Below, piece after piece: positions 13,851 to 26,758 of a stretch of DNA of 32,417 bases. Made by a program: the position numbers and the translations under genes. How positions within the stretch are numbered: the first letter of the stretch is position 1; each line of letters opens with the position of its first letter. The notes under the pieces are model-generated. The model did not search any database and was not told the DNA's origin. It saw only the letters and a list, made by a program, of their open reading frames with translations. Source of the DNA: Bacteroidota bacterium (GTDB lineage Bacteria; Bacteroidota; Bacteroidia; M30B66); assembly GCA_027490225.1 (NCBI GenBank), contig JAIXYK010000032.1, positions 1-32,417 of the forward strand, written 5' to 3'.

Positions 13851-14216
13851 ATGAACGGAAGTACAAGCGAATATTTACCAATGCTCATTCAGTCAGTATT
13901 TGCACTGGGTTTTGTTGCAATGGTGCTGATTATTACGCACTTAATTGGGCCATCTCGAAAATCTGCAAAAAAATTAGAAAATTTTGAGTGCGGAGTGGAA
14001 GCTAAAGGCAATGCGCGTTTACCTTTTTCAGTAAAGTATTTTTTAACTGCAATTTTATTTGTGTTGTTTGATGTGGAAGTAATATTCTTCTATCCTTGGG
14101 CAACAAATTTTAAAGAATTTGGAATGGATGGCTTGTTAAGCATGGCATTATTTGTAGCCTTATTTTTATTGGGATTCCTTTATCTCCGTAAAAAACAAGC
14201 ATTTAAATGGGAATAA
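13851..14216 (+). CDS. nuoA: NADH-quinone oxidoreductase subunit A
   Basis: NuoA is a small membrane subunit of respiratory complex I, near the junction with the peripheral arm. The 121-residue protein has three membrane helices and the conserved loop FECGVEAKGNARLPFSVKYF between helices 1 and 2, followed by FVLFDVEVIFFYPWA. The length is normal. It is the first of 14 nuo genes in canonical order; nuoB starts 33 bp later. Confidence 0.96.
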   Translation: MNGSTSEYLPMLIQSVFALGFVAMVLIITHLIGPSRKSAKKLENFECGVEAKGNARLPFSVKYFLTAILFVLFDVEVIFFYPWATNFKEFGMDGLLSMALFVALFLLGFLYLRKKQAFKWE

Positions 14217-14249
14217 TAAGTTTTAATTGGAACATTCTATATATATAAT

Positions 14250-14792
14250 ATGAGCAATGTAAAAATGGTGGAAGCCCCCGATGGAATTGAAGGACAAGGC
14301 TTTTTTGCTACAAGTTTAGATACAGTAATTGGAATGGCCCGCGCCAATTCATTATGGCCCTTGCCTTTTGCAACTTCTTGCTGCGGAATTGAGTTCATGG
14401 CTACCATGGGTTCTAATTACGATTTAGCACGTTTTGGAGCAGAGCGTATGAGTTTTTCTCCACGTCAAGCAGATTTGCTTATGGTAATGGGAACCATCGC
14501 TAAAAAAATGGGACCGATTCTTCGTCAGGTTTACGAGCAAATGGCTGAACCGAAATGGGTAATTGCTGTAGGTGCTTGTGCATCTAGCGGTGGAATTTTT
14601 GACACATACAGCGTGTTACAAGGAATTGATAAAATTATTCCTGTGGATGTGTATGTGCCAGGTTGTCCTCCAAGACCAGAACAAATTATTGATGGTGTAA
14701 TGCGCATTCAAGATTTAGCAAGGTCAGAAAGCTTGCGCCGTAGAAGTTCAGAAGAGTACAAACAGCTTTTAGCTTCTTATAATATTGACTAA
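14250..14792 (+). CDS. nuoB: NADH-quinone oxidoreductase subunit B (cluster N2)
   Basis: NuoB carries N2, the last iron-sulfur cluster, which passes electrons to quinone. The four ligands are visible: the adjacent pair C44-C45 (TSCCGIEFM), C110 (VGACASSGG) and C139 (VPGCPPRPE). At 180 residues the length is normal. Its stop codon overlaps the nuoC start by one base (TAATG), indicating translational coupling. Confidence 0.97.
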
Positions 14793-15295
14793 TGGCATTA
14801 TCGAACGAATTTTTATTAGAAAAACTGCAAAGCCAATTTGGTGAGGCAATTTTAGGGTCACAACAGGTTAGAGATTACTTAAATGTTGAAGTTGATGCTT
14901 CTAAAATGGCAGATATCGCCAAATTCTTAAGGTCTGATGCAGAATTAAATTTCATGTACCTCACCGACCTTTGCGGTGTGCACATGCCCGACCAAACTGG
15001 TAAAGAATTAGGTGTGGTTTACCACTTCCATAATTTAGAAGAAAATTACAGATTCCGTTTAAAAGCCTGGCTACCGATTCAAGATCCTAGCATTGAAACT
15101 GTTTCCAATATTTGGGATGGCGCCAATTGGATGGAAAGAGAAACGTTTGATTTTTTTGGTATCAACTTTAAAAATCACCCGAATCTGAAACGAATTTTAA
15201 ATGTTGACCACATGGAAGTTTTCCCTTTACGCAAGGAATTCCCATTAGAAGATACAACAAGAGAAGATAAAGACGACCGCTTCTTTGGAAGATAA
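14792..15295 (+). CDS. nuoC: NADH-quinone oxidoreductase subunit C
   Basis: NuoC (30-kDa subunit) is part of the connecting arm of complex I and packs against NuoD. The 167-residue protein contains the family signature ERETFDFFGINFKNHPNLKR and ends with a EFPLEDTTRED-type tail. It is a separate gene, not fused to nuoD as in E. coli. It starts on the last base of nuoB. Confidence 0.95.
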   Translation: MALSNEFLLEKLQSQFGEAILGSQQVRDYLNVEVDASKMADIAKFLRSDAELNFMYLTDLCGVHMPDQTGKELGVVYHFHNLEENYRFRLKAWLPIQDPSIETVSNIWDGANWMERETFDFFGINFKNHPNLKRILNVDHMEVFPLRKEFPLEDTTREDKDDRFFGR

Positions 15296-15307
15296 TAGTT
15301 GAAAGAT

Positions 15308-16519
15308 ATGCAGGAACAATCAATATTTGGTGAAGAACACGTAATGCAAGATGAGCGTCAGCTCAATACCTTGAATCTCGGCCCAACACATCCATCAACG
15401 CATGGTGTGTTCCAAAATGTATTGCAAATGGATGGCGAAATCATTGTGAGTTCGGAACCAACCATTGGCTACATTCACCGTGCATTCGAAAAACTGGCCG
15501 AACGCCGTCCTTATTACCAAGTTACGCCAATCACCGACCGTTTAAACTATTGCTCATCACCTATCAACAACATCGGTTGGCACATGACAGTAGAGAAACT
15601 ATTACAAGTTGAGACGCCGAAACGTGTGGATTACATGCGTGTTATCATTATGGAATTGGCAAGAATTGCCGACCATTTGGTGTGTAACATGGTGTTGGGT
15701 GTGGATTCAGGAGCGTTAACAGGATTTACCTACATGTTCCAGGAACGCGAACGCATTTATGATATGTACGAGGAGTTATGCGGCGCTCGTTTAACTACGA
15801 ATATTGGACGAATTGGTGGTTTTGAAAGAGATTTCACTCCAGGATTCCGCAAAAAACTGGAAGAATTCCTTGCAGGTTTCCCAAAAAGATTTGATGAGTT
15901 CGACAGACTTTTAACCCGTAACCGTATTTTTATGGACAGGATAAAAGGTGTTGGACCAATATCAGCTGAGCGTGCAATTAGCTACAGTTTTGCAGGACCA
16001 AATTTGCGTGCTGCAGGTGTTGACTATGATGTTAGAGTAATGAATCCTTATAGCTCTTACCAAGATTTTGATTTCATGGTTCCAATTGGAACTGCTGGCG
16101 ATACTTTCGACCGTTTTGCGGTGCGTCAAAGTGAAATTCGTGAAAGTTTAAAGATTATCAATCAGGCGTATAGTAATTTGCCGGAAGGAAATTTCTTTGC
16201 AGACTGCCCGGAATTTTATCTTCCTAAAAAACAAGATGTGTACAATTCTATGGAAGCCTTAATCTGGCATTTCAAAATTGTAATGGGCGAAGTAGATATG
16301 CCAGCAGGTGAGATTTATCACGCTGTGGAAGGGGCCAACGGAGAATTAGGATATTACCTGATTTCAGATGGTGGACGTCAGCCATATCGCTTACATTTCC
16401 GCAGACCTTGTTTTATTTATTATCAGGCTTATGCAGAAATGATTAAAGGACAAATGCTCTCAGATGCGATTATGACCATGTCGAGTATGAATGTAATTGC
16501 AGGAGAATTAGACGCTTAA
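15308..16519 (+). CDS. nuoD: NADH-quinone oxidoreductase subunit D
   Basis: NuoD (49-kDa subunit) forms the quinone-binding pocket with NuoB and is related to NiFe-hydrogenase large subunits. GPTHPSTHGVF (25-35) corresponds to the conserved GPxHPxxHG loop near the quinone site; ESYS-like hydrogenase cysteines are absent as expected. I chose ATG 15308 (403 residues). The frame also has a TTG at 15299, three codons upstream and 3 bp after the nuoC stop, but ATG is the likelier start. The C-terminal stretch SMNVIAGELDA is typical of the NuoD end. Confidence 0.95.
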   Translation: MQEQSIFGEEHVMQDERQLNTLNLGPTHPSTHGVFQNVLQMDGEIIVSSEPTIGYIHRAFEKLAERRPYYQVTPITDRLNYCSSPINNIGWHMTVEKLLQVETPKRVDYMRVIIMELARIADHLVCNMVLGVDSGALTGFTYMFQERERIYDMYEELCGARLTTNIGRIGGFERDFTPGFRKKLEEFLAGFPKRFDEFDRLLTRNRIFMDRIKGVGPISAERAISYSFAGPNLRAAGVDYDVRVMNPYSSYQDFDFMVPIGTAGDTFDRFAVRQSEIRESLKIINQAYSNLPEGNFFADCPEFYLPKKQDVYNSMEALIWHFKIVMGEVDMPAGEIYHAVEGANGELGYYLISDGGRQPYRLHFRRPCFIYYQAYAEMIKGQMLSDAIMTMSSMNVIAGELDA

Positions 16520-16529
16520 AGATTTAAAT

Positions 16530-17111
16530 ATGTCGGCACACGCACACGGAACACAACATTTTGATGAAACAAAACGCGCTAACATAAAGTTCAGCGCAGA
16601 AGCACTTACAACCATTGAGAACCTCATGAAAAGGTATCCCGAAGGAAAGTCAAAATCTGCATTATTACCTGTATTACACGTGGCACAAGCAGAATCTGAA
16701 GGTTGGCTAAGTGCAGAAGTAATGGATTATGTGGCTGAGTTAATGGGAATTCAATCCATTGAAGTGTTTGAAGTAGCTTCATTTTACTCCATGTACAACC
16801 TTAGACCAATTGGAAAATGTCAATTGGAAGTTTGCCGTACTTCATCTTGCTGGGCGCGAGGTGCAGAAGACGTGGTTGATTACATCAGTAAAAAATTAAA
16901 CATCAAAGAAGGAGAAACTACAACCGACGGCATGTTTACACTTAAAACAGTTGAATGCTTAGGCTCATGTGGCTCAGCACCCATGTTACAATGTGGCGCA
17001 GAATACCATGAAAATTTAACGGAAGCCAAAATAGATGCTTTAATTGACCGCTACAGAAGCGAAGGCACCAGAAAAAATTACACAGATTTAAATTACACAA
17101 ACAGTAAGTAA
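16530..17111 (+). CDS. nuoE: NADH-quinone oxidoreductase subunit E (cluster N1a)
   Basis: NuoE is the thioredoxin-like 24-kDa subunit of the NADH-oxidising module and holds the [2Fe-2S] cluster N1a. Its ligands are C102 and C107 (CRTSSC) and C143 and C147 (CLGSC). At 193 residues it is slightly long because of a histidine-containing N-terminal extension (MSAHAHGTQH). nuoF follows after 6 bp. Confidence 0.96.
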   Translation: MSAHAHGTQHFDETKRANIKFSAEALTTIENLMKRYPEGKSKSALLPVLHVAQAESEGWLSAEVMDYVAELMGIQSIEVFEVASFYSMYNLRPIGKCQLEVCRTSSCWARGAEDVVDYISKKLNIKEGETTTDGMFTLKTVECLGSCGSAPMLQCGAEYHENLTEAKIDALIDRYRSEGTRKNYTDLNYTNSK

Positions 17112-17117
17112 AGTAGT

Positions 17118-18479
17118 ATGAGTAGAAAGTTGCTGTTAACACACGATAATGTACCTAATCTGCACACCATTGATGTATACCGCTCAAAAGGTGGCTATGC
17201 TTCTGTAGAAAAGGCATTAAAAAAAATGACTCCGGAGGAAATTGTGGAGGAAGTGAAGAAATCTGGCTTAAGAGGTCGTGGAGGAGCTGGTTTTCCTACT
17301 GGAATGAAATGGAGCTTTTTGGCGAAACCAGAAGGCGTTCCGCGCTATTTGGTTTGTAACGCAGATGAATCTGAGCCAGGAACTTTCAAAGACCGCTATT
17401 TAATGGAAAGAAACCCTCATTTATTAATCGAGGGAATGATTACTTCCAGCTTTGCGCTTGGTGCTAATACATCTTACATTTATATAAGAGGTGAGTATTT
17501 TTACGTTTCAAGAATCTTAGAAACCGCCATTGCCGAAGCTTATGCAAAAGGTTGGTTGGGTAAAAATATTCTTGGAACTGGTTATAATCTAGACCTTTAC
17601 GTGCAAGTGGGCGCTGGTGCTTATATCTGCGGAGAAGAAACAGCGCTTTTAGAATCATTAGAAGGGAAAAGAGGAAATCCTCGCATCAAACCACCATTTC
17701 CAGCAATTGCAGGATTATATGGTTGCCCAACTGTTGTAAATAATGTGGAAACCATTGCTGCAGTCGTTCCTATTGTAAATGATGGTGGAGACGAATACGC
17801 AAAAATTGGAATTGGAAGATCTACTGGAACCAAATTAATTTCAGCATCTGGAAATATCAACAAACCGGGAGTATATGAAATTGAAATGGGTGTGCCTGTG
17901 GAAGAATTTATTTTCTCTGACCAATACTGCGGAGGAATTGCTAATGGAAAACGCATGAAAGCTTGCGTGCCTGGTGGCTCATCGGTTCCTATTTTACCAG
18001 ATTATTTAGTTTGCAAAACTGCAACTGGTGAAGATAGGTTAATGACTTACGAATCCCTTTCAGACGGAGGTTTTGCAACAGGTTCTATGCTAGGTTCTGG
18101 AGGTTTCATTGTTTACGATGAGCACCAATGTGTGGTAAGAAACACCTGGAACTTTAGTCGTTTTTACCACCATGAAAGTTGCGGACAATGCAGCCCTTGC
18201 CGCGAAGGTACAGGTTGGATGGAACGCGTGCTGCACCGCCTTGAAAAAGGAATGGGAAATATGAATGACATTGACCTTTTGGTGGAATTGGCGAAGAAAA
18301 TTGAAGGTAATACGATTTGTCCTTTAGGAGATGCTGCTGCTTGGCCAGTTGCTGCTGCCATCAAACATTTTAGACACGAATTTGAATACCATGTCTTATA
18401 TCCAGAAAAAGTGAAGGATTCTAAACATGGACACAAAGAACCCATTATGCCTGTAAAACCAGCGCCAGTAATGGCATAA
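17118..18479 (+). CDS. nuoF: NADH-quinone oxidoreductase subunit F (NADH/FMN, cluster N3)
   Basis: NuoF binds NADH and FMN and carries the first [4Fe-4S] cluster, N3, so electrons enter complex I here. [13 protein letters not shown] (53-65) is the NADH/FMN glycine-rich loop, and [19 protein letters not shown] is the second flavin-site motif. N3 ligands are C355, C358 and C361 (CGQCSPC) plus C401 (TICPLGD). The 453-residue length is normal, with a histidine- and lysine-containing tail of about 20 residues. Confidence 0.97.
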
Positions 18480-18491
18480 CGAACAAACGCT

Positions 18492-19463
18492 ATGAGTTTA
18501 TTAAAAGTAACTATTGATAATCACACCATTGAAGTGCCTGCTGGAACTACCATTCTGCAAGCAGCACGTTTAATTGGTAAAGAAGTAGCTCCGCCCGCCA
18601 TGTGTTATTACACAAAACTGGCAACTTCTGGTGGATATTGCCGCACATGCTTGGTGAAAGTGAGCAAAGGCTCAGAAAAAGATCCTCGCCCAATGCCGAA
18701 ATTGGTGGCTTCTTGCCGCACAACAGTAATGGATGGTATGGAAGTGCAGAATTTCACATCTCCTGAAGTTATTGAAGCTAGAAAAGGTGTGGTGGAATTT
18801 TTATTAATCAATCACCCATTAGATTGCCCTGTGTGTGACCAAGCTGGAGAATGTCATTTGCAAGATTTATCTTACGAAAATGGCAGAAGCTATAGTCGTT
18901 ACGAATTTGAGCGTCGCACATTTGATAAGATTGACATTGGCGACAAAATAAAATTACACATGACACGCTGCATCCTTTGCTACCGTTGTGTAAAAGTGGC
19001 TGATCAACTTACGCCAGGTCGCGGCCATGGTGTGATAAATCGAGGAGATGTTTCTGAGATCAGTACCTACATTGAACATGCTGTGGACAATGAATTTTCT
19101 GGAAACATGATTGATGTTTGTCCTGTAGGAGCACTTACCGACAGAACTTTCCGTTTTAAAAGTCGTGTTTGGTTTTTAAAACCTATGGATGCGCACCGCG
19201 ATTGTGACAAATGCTCTGGTAAAGCGGTAGTTTGGAAATATGGAAATGATATTTACCGTGTAACAGGTCGCAAGGACCAATGGGGCGAGGTAGACGAATG
19301 GATTTGCAACACTTGCAGATACGATAAAAAAGATGCGAAAGACTGGACAGTTGAAGGTCCAAGAAAAATTGAGAAAACATCTGTTATTTCTCAGAATCAT
19401 TACGAAGCGGGAACTAAATTCGTAGCTTCACCCGAAACTTTACCAGTAAAACAATTGAGCTAA
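18492..19463 (+). CDS. nuoG: NADH-quinone oxidoreductase subunit G, short form
   Basis: NuoG passes electrons along clusters N1b, N4 and N5. Ligands are visible for N1b (C38, C50, C53, C75), N5 (H108, C112, C115, C121) and N4 (C160, C163, C166, C210). The protein stops at 323 residues, while E. coli-type NuoG has about 900 and a large molybdopterin-oxidoreductase-like domain, absent here. After N4 remain a C238-x2-C241 and a C272-x2-C275 pair, in the place of the N7 site of longer forms, but without the third cysteine of C-x2-C-x3-C (A245). The next gene starts 1 bp after the stop, so the short end is not a recent frameshift. I believe short NuoG forms occur in other Bacteroidota. Confidence 0.93.
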   Translation: MSLLKVTIDNHTIEVPAGTTILQAARLIGKEVAPPAMCYYTKLATSGGYCRTCLVKVSKGSEKDPRPMPKLVASCRTTVMDGMEVQNFTSPEVIEARKGVVEFLLINHPLDCPVCDQAGECHLQDLSYENGRSYSRYEFERRTFDKIDIGDKIKLHMTRCILCYRCVKVADQLTPGRGHGVINRGDVSEISTYIEHAVDNEFSGNMIDVCPVGALTDRTFRFKSRVWFLKPMDAHRDCDKCSGKAVVWKYGNDIYRVTGRKDQWGEVDEWICNTCRYDKKDAKDWTVEGPRKIEKTSVISQNHYEAGTKFVASPETLPVKQLS

Positions 19464-19464
19464 T

Positions 19465-20511
19465 ATGGAATGGATTTTTCTCTTAGATAAAACGATAATT
19501 GCTTTTATTGCTTTTTCAATTACTTTGCTGATTGCTACTTACAGCACATACGCTGAAAGAAAAATTGCTGCATTTTTACAAGACAGAGTTGGGCCAGACA
19601 GAGCTGGACCTTTCGGAATGTTTCAACCATTAGCAGATGCCGGAAAATTCTTTTTCAAAGAAGAAATTATACCTGCCACTTCTAATAAGTTTCTTTTCAT
19701 TATTGGGCCAGGCATCGCAATGACTACCGCATTGATGACAAGTGTTGTAATACCATGGGGCGGTACATTAGAAATTGGTGACCGTTTGGTTTCCTTGCAA
19801 GTGTCTGATTTGAATATTGGGGTGCTGTATGTTTTCGGTGTTGTTTCATTGGGCGTTTACGGAATTATGATAGGTGGATGGGCTTCCAACAATAAATTTT
19901 CATTGTTAGGTGCTATTCGCGCTTCTTCACAAATGATTAGTTATGAATTAGGAATGGGCTTGTCGCTAATTTCCTTAATAATGCTGACCGGTACATTAAG
20001 CATGAGCGAAATTGTAGAGCAACAACATGGTTTTTGGGCAGATGGTTACTTTTCTTGGTATTTCTTTAAGCAACCAATTGGCTTTTTGATTTTTATAGTT
20101 TGTGCCTTTGCAGAATGCAATAGAACTCCATTTGACTTAGCTGAATGTGAAGCTGAATTAGTTGGTGGTTATCATACAGAATATAGCTCCATGAAACTTG
20201 GGTTTTACATGTTTGCGGAATATATCAACATGTTTATTTCTTCTGCATTCATGGCAAGTCTTTATTTCGGTGGATATAACTTCCCTTTTATGGATGACTT
20301 AGGTCTTTCGCAAAACTGGATTACCATAATTGGAGTAATCGTATTCTTCTTGAAAATATTTGCTTTCATCTTTTTCTTTATGTGGATCAGATGGACAATT
20401 CCACGTTTCCGTTACGACCAATTGATGCGTTTAGGTTGGCAAGTAATGATGCCAGCGGCCTTGCTTCATATTTTCGCTACAGGAGCAGTAATTTTATTTA
20501 ACCAACATTGA
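19465..20511 (+). CDS. nuoH: NADH-quinone oxidoreductase subunit H
   Basis: NuoH is the membrane subunit that forms the entry to the quinone channel and links it to proton translocation. The signature ERKIAAFLQDRVGPDRAGPF (31-50) and the charged loop AECNRTPFDLAECEAELVGG (216-235) are intact, within about eight membrane helices. Length (348) is normal. It starts 1 bp after nuoG. Confidence 0.97.
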   Translation: MEWIFLLDKTIIAFIAFSITLLIATYSTYAERKIAAFLQDRVGPDRAGPFGMFQPLADAGKFFFKEEIIPATSNKFLFIIGPGIAMTTALMTSVVIPWGGTLEIGDRLVSLQVSDLNIGVLYVFGVVSLGVYGIMIGGWASNNKFSLLGAIRASSQMISYELGMGLSLISLIMLTGTLSMSEIVEQQHGFWADGYFSWYFFKQPIGFLIFIVCAFAECNRTPFDLAECEAELVGGYHTEYSSMKLGFYMFAEYINMFISSAFMASLYFGGYNFPFMDDLGLSQNWITIIGVIVFFLKIFAFIFFFMWIRWTIPRFRYDQLMRLGWQVMMPAALLHIFATGAVILFNQH

Positions 20512-20541
20512 TTTCAACAATCTTTATTTGAATCAACAGGA

Positions 20542-21072
20542 ATGAAACAATTAACTAATAGATCAAAAGTAGTATCAGACAAAAGCATGACAATGGCTGA
20601 AGCAGCTTATTTGCCAGCTGTATTTACTGGTCTTGGAATTACTTTAAAGCACTTTTTTAGAAAGCCTGCCACCTTAAAATACCCAGAACAGAAACGTGAA
20701 TTTACGGCTGTTTACCGCGGTCGACATGTTTTAAAGCGTGATGAGAATGGAGCTGAAAGATGCACTGCATGTGGACTTTGCGCTGTTTCTTGTCCCGCAG
20801 AAGCCATTACAATGGTGGCAGATGAACGCAAAAAGGGTGAAGAAAATTTGTATCGCGAAGAAAAATATGCTGCGATATATGAGATAAACATGTTGCGCTG
20901 CATTTTCTGTGGATTGTGCGAAGAGGCTTGTCCGAAACAAGCAATTTTCTTAACTACAGAAATAGCACCAGCAAGTTACGAACGCGAAGATTTTATTTGG
21001 GGAAAAGATAGATTGGTTGAAGGTGTGGAGTCCACAAAACGAATTGACATAACTGCAAGACAAGACCGATAA
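20542..21072 (+). CDS. nuoI: NADH-quinone oxidoreductase subunit I (clusters N6a, N6b)
   Basis: NuoI holds the two [4Fe-4S] clusters between NuoG and NuoB. The two ferredoxin motifs are C74-x2-C77-x2-C80-x3-C84 (CTACGLCAVSCP) and C120-x2-C123-x2-C126-x3-C130 (CIFCGLCEEACP). Residues 20-40 form an amphipathic region at the membrane surface. At 176 residues it has the usual length. The start at 20542 follows a 30-bp gap after nuoH. Confidence 0.96.
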   Translation: MKQLTNRSKVVSDKSMTMAEAAYLPAVFTGLGITLKHFFRKPATLKYPEQKREFTAVYRGRHVLKRDENGAERCTACGLCAVSCPAEAITMVADERKKGEENLYREEKYAAIYEINMLRCIFCGLCEEACPKQAIFLTTEIAPASYEREDFIWGKDRLVEGVESTKRIDITARQDR

Positions 21073-21100
21073 ATACCTTTCTTTTTTACATAAAAATCCG

Positions 21101-21108
21101 CAAATTCG
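21101..21108 (+). promoter_or_regulatory. Possible internal promoter before nuoJ
   Basis: The 51-bp gap between nuoI and nuoJ is the longest in the operon. It contains CAAATTCGCGCCC, which resembles the nuoA upstream sequence TACATTCGCACCC. The box itself has two mismatches to TAnnTTTG and no -33 TTTG is seen, so this is only a suggestion. Confidence 0.2.
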
Positions 21109-21123
21109 CGCCCTGAAAAATTA

Positions 21124-21621
21124 ATGTTAACTATAGCTTTTTACATACTTTCCGCGCTAACTATTTCCTCCGCATTGATGGTGCTTTTCTCAAAAAGCCC
21201 TATTTACAGTGTGTTGTGGTTGGTTATCTGCTTTTTCTCAATCACAGGACATTATATATTATTGGATGCTCACTTTTTAGCAATTGTAAACCTTATAGTT
21301 TATGCAGGTGCTATTATGGTGCTATTTCTTTATGTAATTATGTTGATGAACCTCAATAAAGAATCAGAACCTCAAAAACCTGTGTGGCTAAAATTTGCTT
21401 CAGTTATTACAGGATGCTTATTAATGATAGTGCTTGCAGGTGCTTTAAAGGGCTACAGCGAACTTCCTCCGGCTGCAATTACAGAAGATTTTGGAACCGC
21501 AAAAGGAGTTGGTAAAGTGCTCTTTACAGAGTTTCTAATGCCATTTGAAGTGGCTTCCATCTTATTTATAACTGCAATGGTTGGTGCAGTTATTTTGGCT
21601 AAAAAACACGTAAACGATTAG
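21124..21621 (+). CDS. nuoJ: NADH-quinone oxidoreductase subunit J
   Basis: NuoJ is a five-helix membrane subunit between NuoA/H and the antiporter-like subunits. The 165-residue protein contains the conserved third helix [19 protein letters not shown], whose pi-bulge rotation is tied to coupling in solved complex I structures. It ends 1 bp before nuoK. Confidence 0.95.
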
Positions 21622-21622
21622 T

Positions 21623-21952
21623 ATGGAGAATATTACACAATTTACCGGAGCACTAACAATTAACCATTACCTGTTTTTAAGTTCAGTATTGTTTTCAATA
21701 GGTGTGATGGGCGTTTTACTTAGACGCAACTTTATCATCATCTTTATGTGTGTTGAGTTGATGTTAAATGCAGTAAACATATTATTGGCGGCATTTTCAA
21801 GGTACAACGGCAATCAATCAGGTCAGGTTTTCGTATTTTTCATTATGGTGGTTGCAGCTGCAGAAGTCGCAGTGGGGCTGGCAATTTTAGTAATGATATT
21901 TCGAAATATTAGAACAACAGATATTAACGCATTAAAAAACCTTAAGTGGTAA
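21623..21952 (+). CDS. nuoK: NADH-quinone oxidoreductase subunit K
   Basis: NuoK is a three-helix, MrpC-like membrane subunit. The two buried glutamates of the proton path are present: E45 ([10 protein letters not shown]) and E81 ([11 protein letters not shown]). Length 109 is normal. nuoL follows after 20 bp. Confidence 0.96.
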
Positions 21953-21972
21953 GCCAAACAGTTTAATAAATT

Positions 21973-23892
21973 ATGGAAAAATTCGCCTGGCTCATTCCCG
22001 CTCTTCCGCTGATTGGTTTTTTATTCAGCATCTTTTTTGGTAAAAAGGTCTCTAAAACAGTAGTTGCTTCTGTTGCTTCTATTTTTGTTTTGATTCCTTT
22101 TATACTTACCGTTGCCATCTTCATTCCTTTTATTTCTGTTGCAGAAGCAGAAGCTATTCGCATTCCTTTGTTGGAGTGGATTAATATTGGAAAGCTCACA
22201 GTAAATTATAGCATTCAATTGGACCAATTGTCTTTAATGATGATGTTAGTTATTACTGGTGTTGGATTCTTAATTCATGTATATTCTGCTGGTTATATGC
22301 ACGATGATGATGGCTTTCATCGCTTTTTTGCTTACCTGAATCTTTTCATCTTTTTCATGTTGGTGTTGGTAATGGGAAGTAATTTCCTAATGCTCTTCAT
22401 TGGCTGGGAAGGTGTTGGATTGTGTTCTTACTTATTAATCGGATTCTGGTACAAAAACATGGATTATAATAAGGCTGCGAACAAAGCCTTTATTATGAAT
22501 CGTATAGGAGATTTAGGTTTGTTATTAGGTATATTCTTAATCTATTTAAGGTTTTCATCTTTCGAATACAGCCGCATCGCTTATGAAGCAATAGATATTG
22601 CTATTGGTGACCCAATCATTACAACCATTACCATATTACTTTTTATTGGTGCAATTGGAAAAAGTGCACAGTTGCCATTATTCACCTGGCTTCCAGATGC
22701 AATGGCTGGCCCAACGCCAGTTTCAGCATTGATTCATGCTGCTACAATGGTAACTGCAGGGGTTTATTTAATCATTAGAACCAATATTCTTTTTACCCTT
22801 GCACCATTTACTCAAGAAATAATCATGTTTGTTGGCCTTGCAACTGCATTATTTGCAGCTACAATCGGCCTTAAACAGAATGACATAAAGAAAGTACTTG
22901 CTTATTCTACTGTTTCCCAATTGGGTTACATGTTTTTTGCACTTGGATTAGGCGCTTACACCGCTGCTTATTTCCATTTATTTACACATGCATTCTTCAA
23001 AGCATTGTTATTCTTAGGCTCAGGTTCGGTAATTCACGCTATGAGTGGAGAACAAGATTTAAGAAAAATGGGAGGCTTGAAAAAAGCATTGCCAATAACT
23101 CATGCAACTTTCTTAATCGGAACCATTGCAATTGCTGGACTTCCTCCTTTAGCTGGTTTCTTTTCTAAAGACCAGATTCTTGCTTCAGCGTTTGCGCATC
23201 ATCCAGTTTTATGGATTATGGGAGTGCTGGGTGCATTGATGACAGCATTTTATATGTTCCGTTTGTATTACCTCGCGTTTCATGGAAGCTTCAGAGGTAC
23301 GCATGAACAAGAGCACCATTTGCACGAATCTCCAAAAACAATGACGTTTCCTTTGGTAATTCTTGCTGTAATGTCAGTTATTGCAGGATTTGTGAATGTT
23401 CCTGAAGTTTTAGGCGGAGGACATTGGTTAGATAATTTCTTTACACCACTTTTAGCCGGAACAACTTTAATTCTCGAAGAAAACGTTCATGCGCACCTTT
23501 CTCATACTGTAGAGTACATTTTAATGGGAAGTTCGGTCTTAGCTGTTTTAGCTGTGATATTTTACGCACGCATTCGCTATAAGAACAATGGACATGTTCC
23601 TGCGGAGGACTCGGAACCAATGTCTTTTTTGGAGCGTTTGTTAAGCAAAAAATATTATGTTGATGAATTATATGATAGTATTGTTTCCAATCCTGTAGTA
23701 AAGGGAGCTGGCTTACTTTACAATTATATTGAAGTTAATTTTATAGATAGAATTGTGAATGGAGTTGGACAGCTTGTGGTGTTGAGTTCGCGAACAGCAC
23801 GTTTCATGCAAACAGGAAACGTTGGTTTTTACATTTTTGCTATGGTAATCGGCGCGCTGGTTATTTTAGCTGCTAACACTTTTCTACATTAA
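21973..23892 (+). CDS. nuoL: NADH-quinone oxidoreductase subunit L (distal antiporter-like)
   Basis: NuoL is the outermost proton-pumping subunit and carries the long lateral helix. E146 lies in GWEGVGLCSYLLIGFW, and the discontinuous-helix stretch LPDAMAGPTPVSALIHAATM is intact. At 639 residues it has full length, including the C-terminal amphipathic helix region and final anchoring helix. A polar segment near 500-560 is rich in charged residues. nuoM starts 2 bp after its stop. Confidence 0.97.
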   Translation: MEKFAWLIPALPLIGFLFSIFFGKKVSKTVVASVASIFVLIPFILTVAIFIPFISVAEAEAIRIPLLEWINIGKLTVNYSIQLDQLSLMMMLVITGVGFLIHVYSAGYMHDDDGFHRFFAYLNLFIFFMLVLVMGSNFLMLFIGWEGVGLCSYLLIGFWYKNMDYNKAANKAFIMNRIGDLGLLLGIFLIYLRFSSFEYSRIAYEAIDIAIGDPIITTITILLFIGAIGKSAQLPLFTWLPDAMAGPTPVSALIHAATMVTAGVYLIIRTNILFTLAPFTQEIIMFVGLATALFAATIGLKQNDIKKVLAYSTVSQLGYMFFALGLGAYTAAYFHLFTHAFFKALLFLGSGSVIHAMSGEQDLRKMGGLKKALPITHATFLIGTIAIAGLPPLAGFFSKDQILASAFAHHPVLWIMGVLGALMTAFYMFRLYYLAFHGSFRGTHEQEHHLHESPKTMTFPLVILAVMSVIAGFVNVPEVLGGGHWLDNFFTPLLAGTTLILEENVHAHLSHTVEYILMGSSVLAVLAVIFYARIRYKNNGHVPAEDSEPMSFLERLLSKKYYVDELYDSIVSNPVVKGAGLLYNYIEVNFIDRIVNGVGQLVVLSSRTARFMQTGNVGFYIFAMVIGALVILAANTFLH

Positions 23893-23894
23893 GT

Positions 23895-25376
23895 ATGATT
23901 ACAGCTTCACTCATTGCCCTTCCTTTTATTGCAGCTATTTTGTTGCTTTTGTTGCCGGGCAATTTATCAAAATGGGCAGCACTTACAGCCACAATTATTC
24001 AAGCGGCATTCACAGCTTATGTCATCGTTATTTTTAATATCAATGAACACAATAGTTTGTTATCTAATGCACAATTCATTATTGACCAACCTTGGATAAG
24101 CAGCATTGGAATTAGATTTTTTGCCGCAATAGATGGCATTAGCATGTTGATGCTGATTTTAACCAATTTCTTGCTTCCATTAATTGTTCTTTCCACTTGG
24201 GATAGACCGATTAACAATTCGAAACTCTTCTACTTCTTAGTACTCCTAATGCAAGGCGCGCTTGTAGGTGTTTTTGTTTCCTTAGATGGTTTCTTGTATT
24301 ACATTTTCTGGGAATTAGCCTTAATCCCAATCTACTTTATTGTCCTATTGTGGGGTGGAGAAAACCGTGTGAAAATTACCTTTAAGTTTTTCATTTACAC
24401 CTTATTAGGTAGTTTATTCATGTTAGCTGCAATTATTTGGTTGTATTTGCAAACCGGAGATTTGCATTCTTTTGGAGTTGATGCATTTTACAACCTAAAC
24501 CTCGATATGGTGCAGCAGCGCTGGATATTCTGGGCTTTCTTTCTGGCTTATGCCATTAAAATCCCATTGCTTCCTTTCCATAGCTGGCAACCAGACACAT
24601 ACAATACTGCACCCAATGCAGGTACAATGCTCCTTTCGGCAATTATGTTGAAAATGGGTATTTACAGCGTGATGCGTTGGTTATTACCTATAGCACCAGG
24701 AGCTGTAATGGCTTATGCTGATTTGGTAATTATACTTTGTATCATTGGAATTATCTATGCTTCTTGGATTGCTATTGGTCAAAAAGAAATTAAAAGGCTT
24801 TTTGCTTGGTCATCTATCGCTCACGTTGCATTAATCACCGCAGGCGTATTTACACTAAGCAGAACAGGTTTTCAGGGTGCATTGATTCAAATGTTATCTC
24901 ACGGTGTTTGTGCAGTAGGTATGTTTTTCGTGGCTGAAATTATTCTGAGAAGAAGAGGCACTTATGCTTTTGATAAATTGGGAGGTATTCGCGAGAAAGC
25001 ACCAGTTTTCGCTTCTGTTTTTCTTGTAATTACTTTTGGAAGTGCTGCTTTGCCTTTAACAAGCGGATTTATTGGTGAATTCTTATTATTGAATTCCCTT
25101 TATGAATACAATTTCTGGTATGCAACTTTCGCAGGATTAACAATTATTTTAGGAGCTGTTTACATGCTTCGTGCTTTCAAATTCAGCATGTTAGGAGCTG
25201 CTGAAGAAGGAAGTGTTTTTCAAGACCTCAGCTTTACCGAAAAATTGGTATTTTTTCCAATAGTAGGTCTCATCATTTTTTTAGGGGTGTTTCCTCAGTT
25301 TATTTTCAATTTAACTGACGAATCAGTAAAATATCTTATCACAGAAATTAACCAACACCTCGCAACAGGACTATAA
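23895..25376 (+). CDS. nuoM: NADH-quinone oxidoreductase subunit M
   Basis: NuoM is the middle antiporter-like proton pump of complex I. The essential glutamate is E140 in FWELALIPIYF, and the family stretch HSWQPDTYNTAPNAGTMLLS marks the discontinuous helix. The 493-residue length and 14-helix pattern are normal. It is spaced 2 bp from both neighbours, which suggests translation in step with nuoL and nuoN. Confidence 0.97.
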   Translation: MITASLIALPFIAAILLLLLPGNLSKWAALTATIIQAAFTAYVIVIFNINEHNSLLSNAQFIIDQPWISSIGIRFFAAIDGISMLMLILTNFLLPLIVLSTWDRPINNSKLFYFLVLLMQGALVGVFVSLDGFLYYIFWELALIPIYFIVLLWGGENRVKITFKFFIYTLLGSLFMLAAIIWLYLQTGDLHSFGVDAFYNLNLDMVQQRWIFWAFFLAYAIKIPLLPFHSWQPDTYNTAPNAGTMLLSAIMLKMGIYSVMRWLLPIAPGAVMAYADLVIILCIIGIIYASWIAIGQKEIKRLFAWSSIAHVALITAGVFTLSRTGFQGALIQMLSHGVCAVGMFFVAEIILRRRGTYAFDKLGGIREKAPVFASVFLVITFGSAALPLTSGFIGEFLLLNSLYEYNFWYATFAGLTIILGAVYMLRAFKFSMLGAAEEGSVFQDLSFTEKLVFFPIVGLIIFLGVFPQFIFNLTDESVKYLITEINQHLATGL

Positions 25377-25378
25377 CC

Positions 25379-26758
25379 ATGACTACACTTATATTTTTGT
25401 CTTTGCTTGGATTTTTGGTGCTTTTTATAGGAGCATTCGATTACAAGAAACTTATTCTTCCAACTGTTATAATTGGTTTGATTGTCGCTTTTTTCTTAAA
25501 TGCGATGGATTGGGAATTAACCGCTACATCATTTTATGGAATGATAGACTACAACCATTACGCAGTTTCTTTTACAGGATTAATGATTGTTTCTGTTTTG
25601 CTGCTCATGCTCGTAGCAAGTTATCATTTTAGAAATGAAGGAAGTCACATTGCAGACATTTACGCATTGATGATTTTTACGCTCATTGGAGGACTTCTGA
25701 TGACTTCCTTTAGCAATTTAGTAATGTTGTTTATTGGAATTGAAATTCTTTCGATAGCGCTTTATATTTTAGCGGGAAGCAGAAGGTTAAATATTGCTTC
25801 CAACGAAGCTTCTTTGAAGTATTTCTTAATGGGAGCTTTTGCTTCTGGATTCCTCCTGTTTGGAATCACCTTAATTTTTGGAGTAACGAATAGTTTTAAC
25901 TTAGCTGAAATTTCTGATTTTGTAGCTGATACCGAAGAACTTCCAACTTTATTCAGTACTGGTGTAATGTTGATTTTAATTGGATTTGCATTTAAAATCG
26001 GTGCTGTTCCATTTCATTTTTGGACGCCTGATGTATACCAAGGTGCTCCAACTTTTATTACAGCCTTTATGGCTACAGTTGTTAAAACTGCTGGTATTGC
26101 TGCTTTTTACAGATTGTTTGATTCTTGTTTCAGCGGAATAGATGGCACTTGGTTTAAAATACTTTGGATTATCTGTGTTGCCACTATTTTATTAGGAAAC
26201 ATTACAGCAGTAATGCAAAACGAATCGAAGCGCATGCTGGCATGGTCAAGTGTTTCACATGCAGGTTATTTATTGATTCCAATATTGGCTTTGAATGAAC
26301 TTTCTTCTAGCGCAATTTTCTACTACTCTGCAGCATATAGTATTGCTTCCATAACAGCATTTGCAGTTTTAATTGGATTGAGTAAATTTCAAAATGATTT
26401 GCCTTTAGACCAGTATAAGGGCTTGGCAAAGAACAACCCAATAATGACTACTGCCTTAGTTGTATCTATGTTTTCATTGGCAGGAATTCCACCACTAGCC
26501 GGCTTTTTTGGTAAGTACTTTGTTTTCCTCACCGCCATGCAAAGCGGTTTAATTTACGTGGTAGTGATTGCGATAATTGGTTCCTTAATTGGAATTTACT
26601 ACTATTTCAAACCTCTTATATACGCTTTCAATAATGAAGGTGGTTCACTTGAAAAAATTGAAACCAATTTTGCATTCAATTTTGTTTTGATGGCAGGAAT
26701 TGTTTTAAGCCTGCTACTTGGAATTTTTCCTGACATTTTGAGAAATTTACCAGGTTAG
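25379..26758 (+). CDS. nuoN: NADH-quinone oxidoreductase subunit N
   Basis: NuoN is the antiporter-like subunit nearest the quinone site and the last gene of the operon. E122 lies in FIGIEILSIALYILAGSRR, and the HFWTPDVYQGAPTFITAFMA stretch is the discontinuous helix. Length 459 is normal. No clear hairpin terminator follows in the 73 bp before the next gene, so read-through into it is possible. Confidence 0.96.
   Translation: MTTLIFLSLLGFLVLFIGAFDYKKLILPTVIIGLIVAFFLNAMDWELTATSFYGMIDYNHYAVSFTGLMIVSVLLLMLVASYHFRNEGSHIADIYALMIFTLIGGLLMTSFSNLVMLFIGIEILSIALYILAGSRRLNIASNEASLKYFLMGAFASGFLLFGITLIFGVTNSFNLAEISDFVADTEELPTLFSTGVMLILIGFAFKIGAVPFHFWTPDVYQGAPTFITAFMATVVKTAGIAAFYRLFDSCFSGIDGTWFKILWIICVATILLGNITAVMQNESKRMLAWSSVSHAGYLLIPILALNELSSSAIFYYSAAYSIASITAFAVLIGLSKFQNDLPLDQYKGLAKNNPIMTTALVVSMFSLAGIPPLAGFFGKYFVFLTAMQSGLIYVVVIAIIGSLIGIYYYFKPLIYAFNNEGGSLEKIETNFAFNFVLMAGIVLSLLLGIFPDILRNLPG

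Follow-up and report, generated by a model that had tools for sequence, protein, structure and literature searches.

Canonical NuoG/Nqo3 proteins, such as those of E. coli and Thermus, combine the domains of clusters N1b, N5 and N4 with a small N7 domain, in which the ligands follow the pattern C-x2-C-x3-C...C, and with a large molybdopterin-fold half. Their genes adjoin nuoF and nuoH. Passages in PMC8357420 and PMC5123574 place N7 off the electron path in E. coli, and those in PMC5123574 describe it as needed for stability and not for electron transfer. Mitochondrial NDUFS1 and the N7-less long NuoG proteins of other Bacteroidota classes resemble the short NuoG described here in having lost the canonical N7 site, but they retain the large half and have no cysteines at the N7 ligand positions. 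NfnA, a subunit of the Thermococcus sibiricus NfnABC complex (9n5u/9n5v), has, like short NuoG, an extra cysteine past N7 ligand 4 (C-x2-C-R-F) and is the best PDB profile match of the short-form domain; in contrast to short NuoG, it retains the canonical C-x2-C-x3-C, so that it has five cysteines, and it belongs to a transhydrogenase, not to complex I. Its C-terminal domain is called partial, by prediction, in a passage of PMC10482914. Euglena NDUFS1a (8iuf_1A) is a short NuoG-like chain of a eukaryotic complex I. HoxU (NCBIfam PRK07569) is also a short N1b/N4/N5 protein, and its model matches residues 1-218 of the NuoG studied here; with 238 positions it is too short to include a four-cysteine domain. 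NDUFS6 of mitochondrial complex I binds zinc, but it is a separate subunit and not a NuoG domain. Its small site is thought to stabilize the NDUFS1 clusters, according to a passage in PMC8762328. No description of a short NuoG or of its four-cysteine site was found in the open-access literature searched, a scope outside which most subscription papers fall.

The window, that is, the whole stretch of 32,417 nucleotides that was analyzed, carries all 14 nuo genes in order at 13851-26758 (ORF list, Pfam, NCBIfam), in agreement with a preliminary description of the operon as otherwise complete. nuoG sits between nuoF and nuoH, as in nuo operons, and nuoH starts at 19465, directly after the end of nuoG at 19463. 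The features are as follows.

13851..18479, + strand: nuoA, nuoB, nuoC, nuoD, nuoE and nuoF (Pfam, NCBIfam)
18492..19463, + strand: nuoG, short form, 323 aa (ORF translation; Pfam, NCBIfam)
18603..18716, + strand: N1b [2Fe-2S] ligands C38, C50, C53 and C75 (PF13510/PF00111; 93/93 short NuoG)
18813..18854, + strand: N5 [4Fe-4S] ligands H108, C112, C115 and C121 (PF10588; Cys in 93/93, His in 75/75)
18969..19121, + strand: N4 [4Fe-4S] ligands C160, C163, C166 and C210 (PF22117; 93/93 short NuoG)
19149..19361, + strand: probable N7 domain remnant, residues 220-290 (hhalign; residue 290 reached in many alignments of the model with NDUFS1/NuoG chains)
19203..19214, + strand: first pair, C238-x2-C241, aligned to N7 ligands 1 and 2 (sequence, conservation, hhalign)
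19305..19316, + strand: second pair, C272-x2-C275, at the start of predicted helix 273-278 (sequence, conservation, hhalign, model)
19347..19361, + strand: predicted strand 286-290, apparently at the position of the returning strand in full-length NuoG (model alignments, range ends only)
19380..19403, + strand: tail motif SVIS-x-NHY, a possible docking segment (conservation in 93 short NuoG)
19465..26758, + strand: nuoH, nuoI, nuoJ, nuoK, nuoL, nuoM and nuoN (Pfam, NCBIfam)

The preliminary description had presented a NuoG of 323 residues with complete N1b, N4 and N5 ligands, and translation and Pfam agree. The cysteines lie at positions 38, 50, 53, 75, 112, 115, 121, 160, 163, 166, 210, 238, 241, 272 and 275, H108 is the N5 histidine, and the N1b, N5 and N4 ligand sets are complete. 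Pfam found no Molybdopterin domain and nothing past residue 216 at E<=0.001. TIGR01973, the NCBIfam NuoG model, covers profile positions 1-260 of 606 only, with 295.1 bits against an equivalog cut-off of 470.05; the protein falls below that cut-off, and its orthology rests on operon context and N-terminal homology. The canonical N7 pattern C-x2-C-x3-C...C is absent. As the preliminary description had it, the region holds C238-x2-C241 and C272-x2-C275 and has no cysteine at the third N7 position, which both the sequence and hhalign confirm. Compared with canonical NuoG, the protein thus lacks ligand 3 and the large half and has a new cysteine three residues past ligand 4. It does not fit the N7-less NDUFS1 type either, since it has cysteines at the site and no large half. 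A search of the same genome with this nuoG at E<=0.001 returned nuoG itself as the sole match.

Conservation was examined in two sets of proteins. Of the 105 loci given by genome searches, 93 supplied a complete short NuoG, 300-420 residues long, from 93 genomes that carry 28 family labels and 51 genus labels; the 12 loci left out were five long proteins, six fragments (at contig ends, or parts of a single broken gene) and locus L097. All 15 cysteines, including C238, C241, C272 and C275, were present in 93/93 proteins, so that the proposed check on the four cysteines found them invariant. Other cysteines of the segment vary, with position 242 being cysteine in 31/93 and position 236 in 12/93. 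The spacing of the first pair was 2, 4 and 10 residues in 68, 22 and 3 of the 93 proteins, respectively. In the tail, S297 and V298 occur in 93/93 and Y304 in 91/93, and these residues may mark a docking segment. The second set came from a scan of 84,980 species genomes and consists of the window protein and 74 complete proteins among the best 80 of at least 570 confirmed stretches. The four cysteines were present in 75/75 of these, in a set that is biased because the scan pattern itself held C-x2-C, and the six incomplete proteins among the best 80 of at least 570 likewise carry them. The equivalent of H108 was kept in 75/75, and first-pair spacings of 2 and 4 residues were found in 72 and 3 of 75, again among the best 80 of at least 570 stretches. 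In a comparison of 80 loci from relatives, nuoH lay downstream at 78/80, starting at most 200 bases away in 76, and nuoF lay upstream at 71/80.

Two variants were seen among these loci. L094, L095 and L098, with 10 residues between the cysteines of the first pair, have a charged loop inserted in the knuckle. L097 (G594, a draft genome) has a frame shift near residue 260 that could be an assembly error; its DNA still codes for all four cysteines, and the downstream pair lies in another frame.

Alignment of profiles with hhalign related the short-form domain (15 rows) to canonical N7 domains (16 rows) with a probability of 94 and an E value of 1.3e-7, which bears out the proposal that the site stands in place of N7 and supports homology of the four-cysteine segment to the N7 domain and its probable derivation from it. 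In this alignment, C238 and C241 correspond to N7 ligands 1 and 2 and C272 to ligand 4, a two-residue gap removes the third ligand, and C275 stands on the glycine of the canonical C-D-x-G-R (ligand 4 +3). It was preferred to a MAFFT alignment, in which the first cysteine pair is displaced. Among 55 long NuoG rows from 53 genomes, 24 carry a strict C-x2-C-x3-C...C, with glycine at ligand 4 +3 in 24/24; the uniform C-x2-C-x3-C spacing in these rows follows from the search pattern itself. The other 31 have no N7 motif and have lost the ligand cysteines. As 30 of the 55 rows were the best matches to an N7-less query and 20 had been selected by hand, these shares are not frequencies. The nearest PDB chain to the domain by profile search was NfnA (9n5u), with E 0.015 (0.017 when another profile was used). 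Zinc-binding Pfam families gave no significant match to single members (E 0.05-0.5), and the score of the N7 family PF22151 was of a similar order (E 0.077 in 1 of 15 single members). A LIM-domain chain appeared at E 0.093 and 0.2 in two domain-profile PDB searches, a weak match that was not used.

An AlphaFold2 model of short NuoG, built from 62 aligned sequences, had a mean pLDDT of 80, with block means of 86-94 over residues 231-290 and values below 50 for nearly all residues from 302 on. Foldseek and VIA place the full model with NDUFS1/NuoG chains (Z up to 24.3). The predicted order is strand 230-235, knuckle 238-241, strands 244-250 and 253-258, then C272 followed by helix 273-278, and strand 286-290. 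A treble-clef zinc finger consists of a knuckle, then a hairpin, then a C-x2-C at the start of a helix, and the predicted secondary structure follows this order with its two cysteine pairs, knuckle, hairpin and helix start. A model of the domain alone was of lower confidence (mean pLDDT 72) and matched N7 domains weakly (best Foldseek E 0.48; VIA Z at most 3.5); among the 50 matches listed of 141 and a further 46, none was named a zinc finger, a weak search in which absence is not evidence. Many of the alignments of the full model end near its residue 290, which corresponds to about residue 586 of bovine NDUFS1 and about residue 627 of Thermus Nqo3, whereas those to E. coli extend as far as residue 299 of the model and residue 763 of the chain. 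This suggests that the predicted strand 286-290 fills the position taken in full-length NuoG by the strand coming back from the distal half, a placement that is indirect because the alignments show range ends only. The earlier idea that the site caps the truncated subunit gains indirect support to this extent, as strand 286-290 seems to be placed where a downstream strand closes the full-length domain.

Our preferred reading, to which we give a probability of about 0.57, is that N7 was remodeled into a structural Zn(Cys)4 site, which now closes off the truncated subunit. The molybdopterin-fold half would have been lost entire in an ancestor of the short-NuoG clade, and the small N7 domain adjoining it kept. 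A two-residue deletion past the first cysteine pair would have removed N7 ligand 3, and a cysteine would have replaced the glycine three residues past ligand 4. The resulting C-x(2,4,10)-C, beta-hairpin and C-x2-C-helix arrangement would most likely hold one structural zinc in a treble-clef-like site and do the stabilizing job of E. coli N7, with local strand 286-290 closing the sheet formerly closed by the lost half. A working short NuoG would still carry the usual on-path clusters, N1b, N4 and N5. The analysis itself establishes the sequence, its conservation, the homology to the N7 domain, the failure to find a second half in the genome and the predicted topology. We infer the grouping of the four cysteines into one site, the identity of the metal as zinc, its structural role and the order of the losses. 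Zinc is favored because the first-pair spacing varies (2, 4 or 10 residues) and because the predicted order resembles a treble clef; a structural role is expected because E. coli requires N7, which is off the electron path, for the stability of complex I. The preliminary description had offered zinc or an altered cluster, and the predicted topology and tolerant spacing move the balance toward zinc, a choice of metal that we infer.

The main rival to zinc is an altered iron-sulfur cluster, either a [4Fe-4S] or a [2Fe-2S] variant of N7 whose third ligand has moved to ligand 4 +3. C-x2-C pairs ligate iron-sulfur clusters in many proteins, the segment appears to descend from an N7 domain with ligands 1, 2 and 4 retained, and NfnA, with the canonical third cysteine plus an equivalent of C275, is a plausible intermediate. 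For the same reason, a cysteine of the C275 type does not by itself imply zinc, since NfnA has it in addition to the canonical N7 cysteines. Four-cysteine sites of zinc-like appearance can hold iron-sulfur clusters, as PMC12356973 reports for nsp14 and nsp10. This reading must, however, accommodate a first-pair spacing that ranges from 2 to 10, against C-x2-C-x3-C in all of the pattern-selected canonical rows, and the deletion of two residues beside the cluster pocket. We regard it as possible and rather unlikely.

A mononuclear, rubredoxin-like Fe(Cys)4 site, possibly redox-active, would be compatible with the C-x2-C/C-x2-C arrangement, but no result favors iron over zinc, and a redox role would be without an obvious partner because N7 is off the electron path in E. 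coli (passages in PMC8357420 and PMC5123574); we consider this very unlikely. Also very unlikely, in our view, would be four cysteines that are metal-free remnants kept for other reasons. N7 can indeed vanish, as in sheep NDUFS1, which has Asp/Asp/Ser/Ser at the ligand positions (passage in PMC8357420), and as in the 31 of 55 chosen long Bacteroidota rows that have no N7 motif; those rows, however, lost the ligand cysteines, whereas the short form keeps four in 93/93.

The second half of NuoG was sought as a separate gene. PF00384 had no match at E<=0.001 in the window's own genome, whose listed completeness is 100%; it did match in 11 of 14 control genomes. Profile A5, made from nine NuoG second halves of other Bacteroidota, was run twice against the own genome and gave no match at E<=1. 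It did find the half in 5/5 long-NuoG genomes from outside the profile (G147, G236, G179, G188 and G240; 2e-92 to 1e-114) and in three that had supplied its rows (G172, G073 and G030; 7e-107 to 3e-129); G001, also searched, is in the profile as well. Five other short-NuoG genomes yielded nothing in two cases and matches at E 0.005-0.02 to frames of 1019-1044 aa in three, frames that we take to be possibly the molybdopterin-fold subunit of alternative complex III. The separate gene whose discovery would have counted against a truncated subunit was thus found in the own genome by neither profile. A split gene is disfavored, as the own genome matches neither PF00384 nor A5 and the independent controls were positive; the half therefore appears, from these searches, to be gone rather than split. 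The same results make it very unlikely that another gene supplies the half in trans, as perhaps for Euglena NDUFS1, whose chain is similarly short (8iuf_1A, 385 residues, 352 modeled, VIA Z 23.0) and whose other half is presumably a separate subunit. No large compensating extension was seen in the lengths of nuo subunits, which were compared between 8 short-type and 10 long-type stretches, with broken frames for nuoE and nuoF in L264.

The short NuoG is a fixed type common in class Bacteroidia. In a search of 296 genomes across the phylum, 46 matched at the short-form score level (rows at E<=1e-138), and in a search of 395 genomes of the class, 199 did so (E<=1e-60), the short form being judged there by score and not gene by gene, with at least G537, G339 and G500 being fragments. 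Origin by artifact or frameshift is unlikely because 199/395 class genomes match and nuoH closely follows nuoG. N7-less long NuoG was matched by 138 of the 296 phylum genomes (E<=1e-70), all outside the window's class. The long NuoG proteins that were read are mostly of 550-700 residues and have either a canonical N7 or no N7 ligands. Within the window's class, two genomes have a long canonical NuoG, as locus L047 and, beside a short one, as L102. In a tree of the NuoG N-terminal region, 16/16 sampled short proteins grouped in a single clade (100/98) that is separate from long NuoG of the other classes, where N7-less rows were nested among canonical ones; the tree is midpoint-rooted, and its long branches, which include the placement of L047 and L102 with the short clade, are flagged. 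Two of its short rows, L094 and L100, have the C2-C2 arrangement by their alignment rows. The simplest inference from these sequences would be a canonical-N7 ancestor and a single origin of the short form.

Four cases stand out in this distribution. The Bacteroidia genome G617 carries both a short NuoG (L092) and a long canonical-N7 NuoG (L102, a 924-residue open frame), which suggests that it has two complex I enzymes. L026, L032 and L036 (G013, G034 and G131), from one genus of another class, encode a short four-cysteine NuoG with 67-68% identity; among 57 other sampled relatives, 52 match only at the long-NuoG level and five have no match at E<=1e-30. L026 lies inside the short clade of the tree with modest support, and the pattern looks like horizontal transfer of the gene or operon. 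L140, from a metagenome-assembled genome named Spirochaetes bacterium, encodes a short NuoG 69% identical to that of the window, for which mislabeling, contamination and transfer are all candidates. The reduced genome G317 (L100/L261; 489,825 bases, 0.49 Mb) keeps nuoA-G, with a short NuoG and all four cysteines; its nuoH is not beside nuoG but about 0.4 Mb away in the record, and there is a second, weaker NuoH-like match too. No relative was found in the viral contigs searched.

That the enzyme probably works, as the preliminary description supposed, would fit the conservation of the protein, its operon of 14 genes and the persistence of short NuoG in the 0.49-Mb genome. The protein is a known kind of NuoG with a variant site and a missing half, widespread and consistent, and not categorically new. 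In many Bacteroidia, the second half of NuoG is absent and N7 has given way to a conserved four-cysteine site, probably a zinc site that keeps the protein folded. We put at even odds the broader proposal that an off-path [4Fe-4S] cluster was exchanged for a zinc finger in Bacteroidia complex I, allowing the loss of the NuoG half. If true, a core subunit of respiration would have undergone a natural iron-sulfur-to-zinc conversion that became fixed in much of a large class. The short form itself suggests that NuoG can do without its molybdopterin-derived half, provided that the N7 domain is re-stabilized. Three outcomes for N7 can be compared within one phylum, namely, both N7 and the large half kept, N7 lost but the large half kept, and N7 remodeled where the large half is gone. 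The short form makes the roles of N7 and of the molybdopterin-derived half directly testable and may represent a natural NuoEFG module of minimal size.

In short-NuoG operons, NuoF carries a C-terminal tail, which is GLAHYADP-like in 4 of the 8 relatives read (18419-18479 in the window). This tail might pack against the shortened NuoG.
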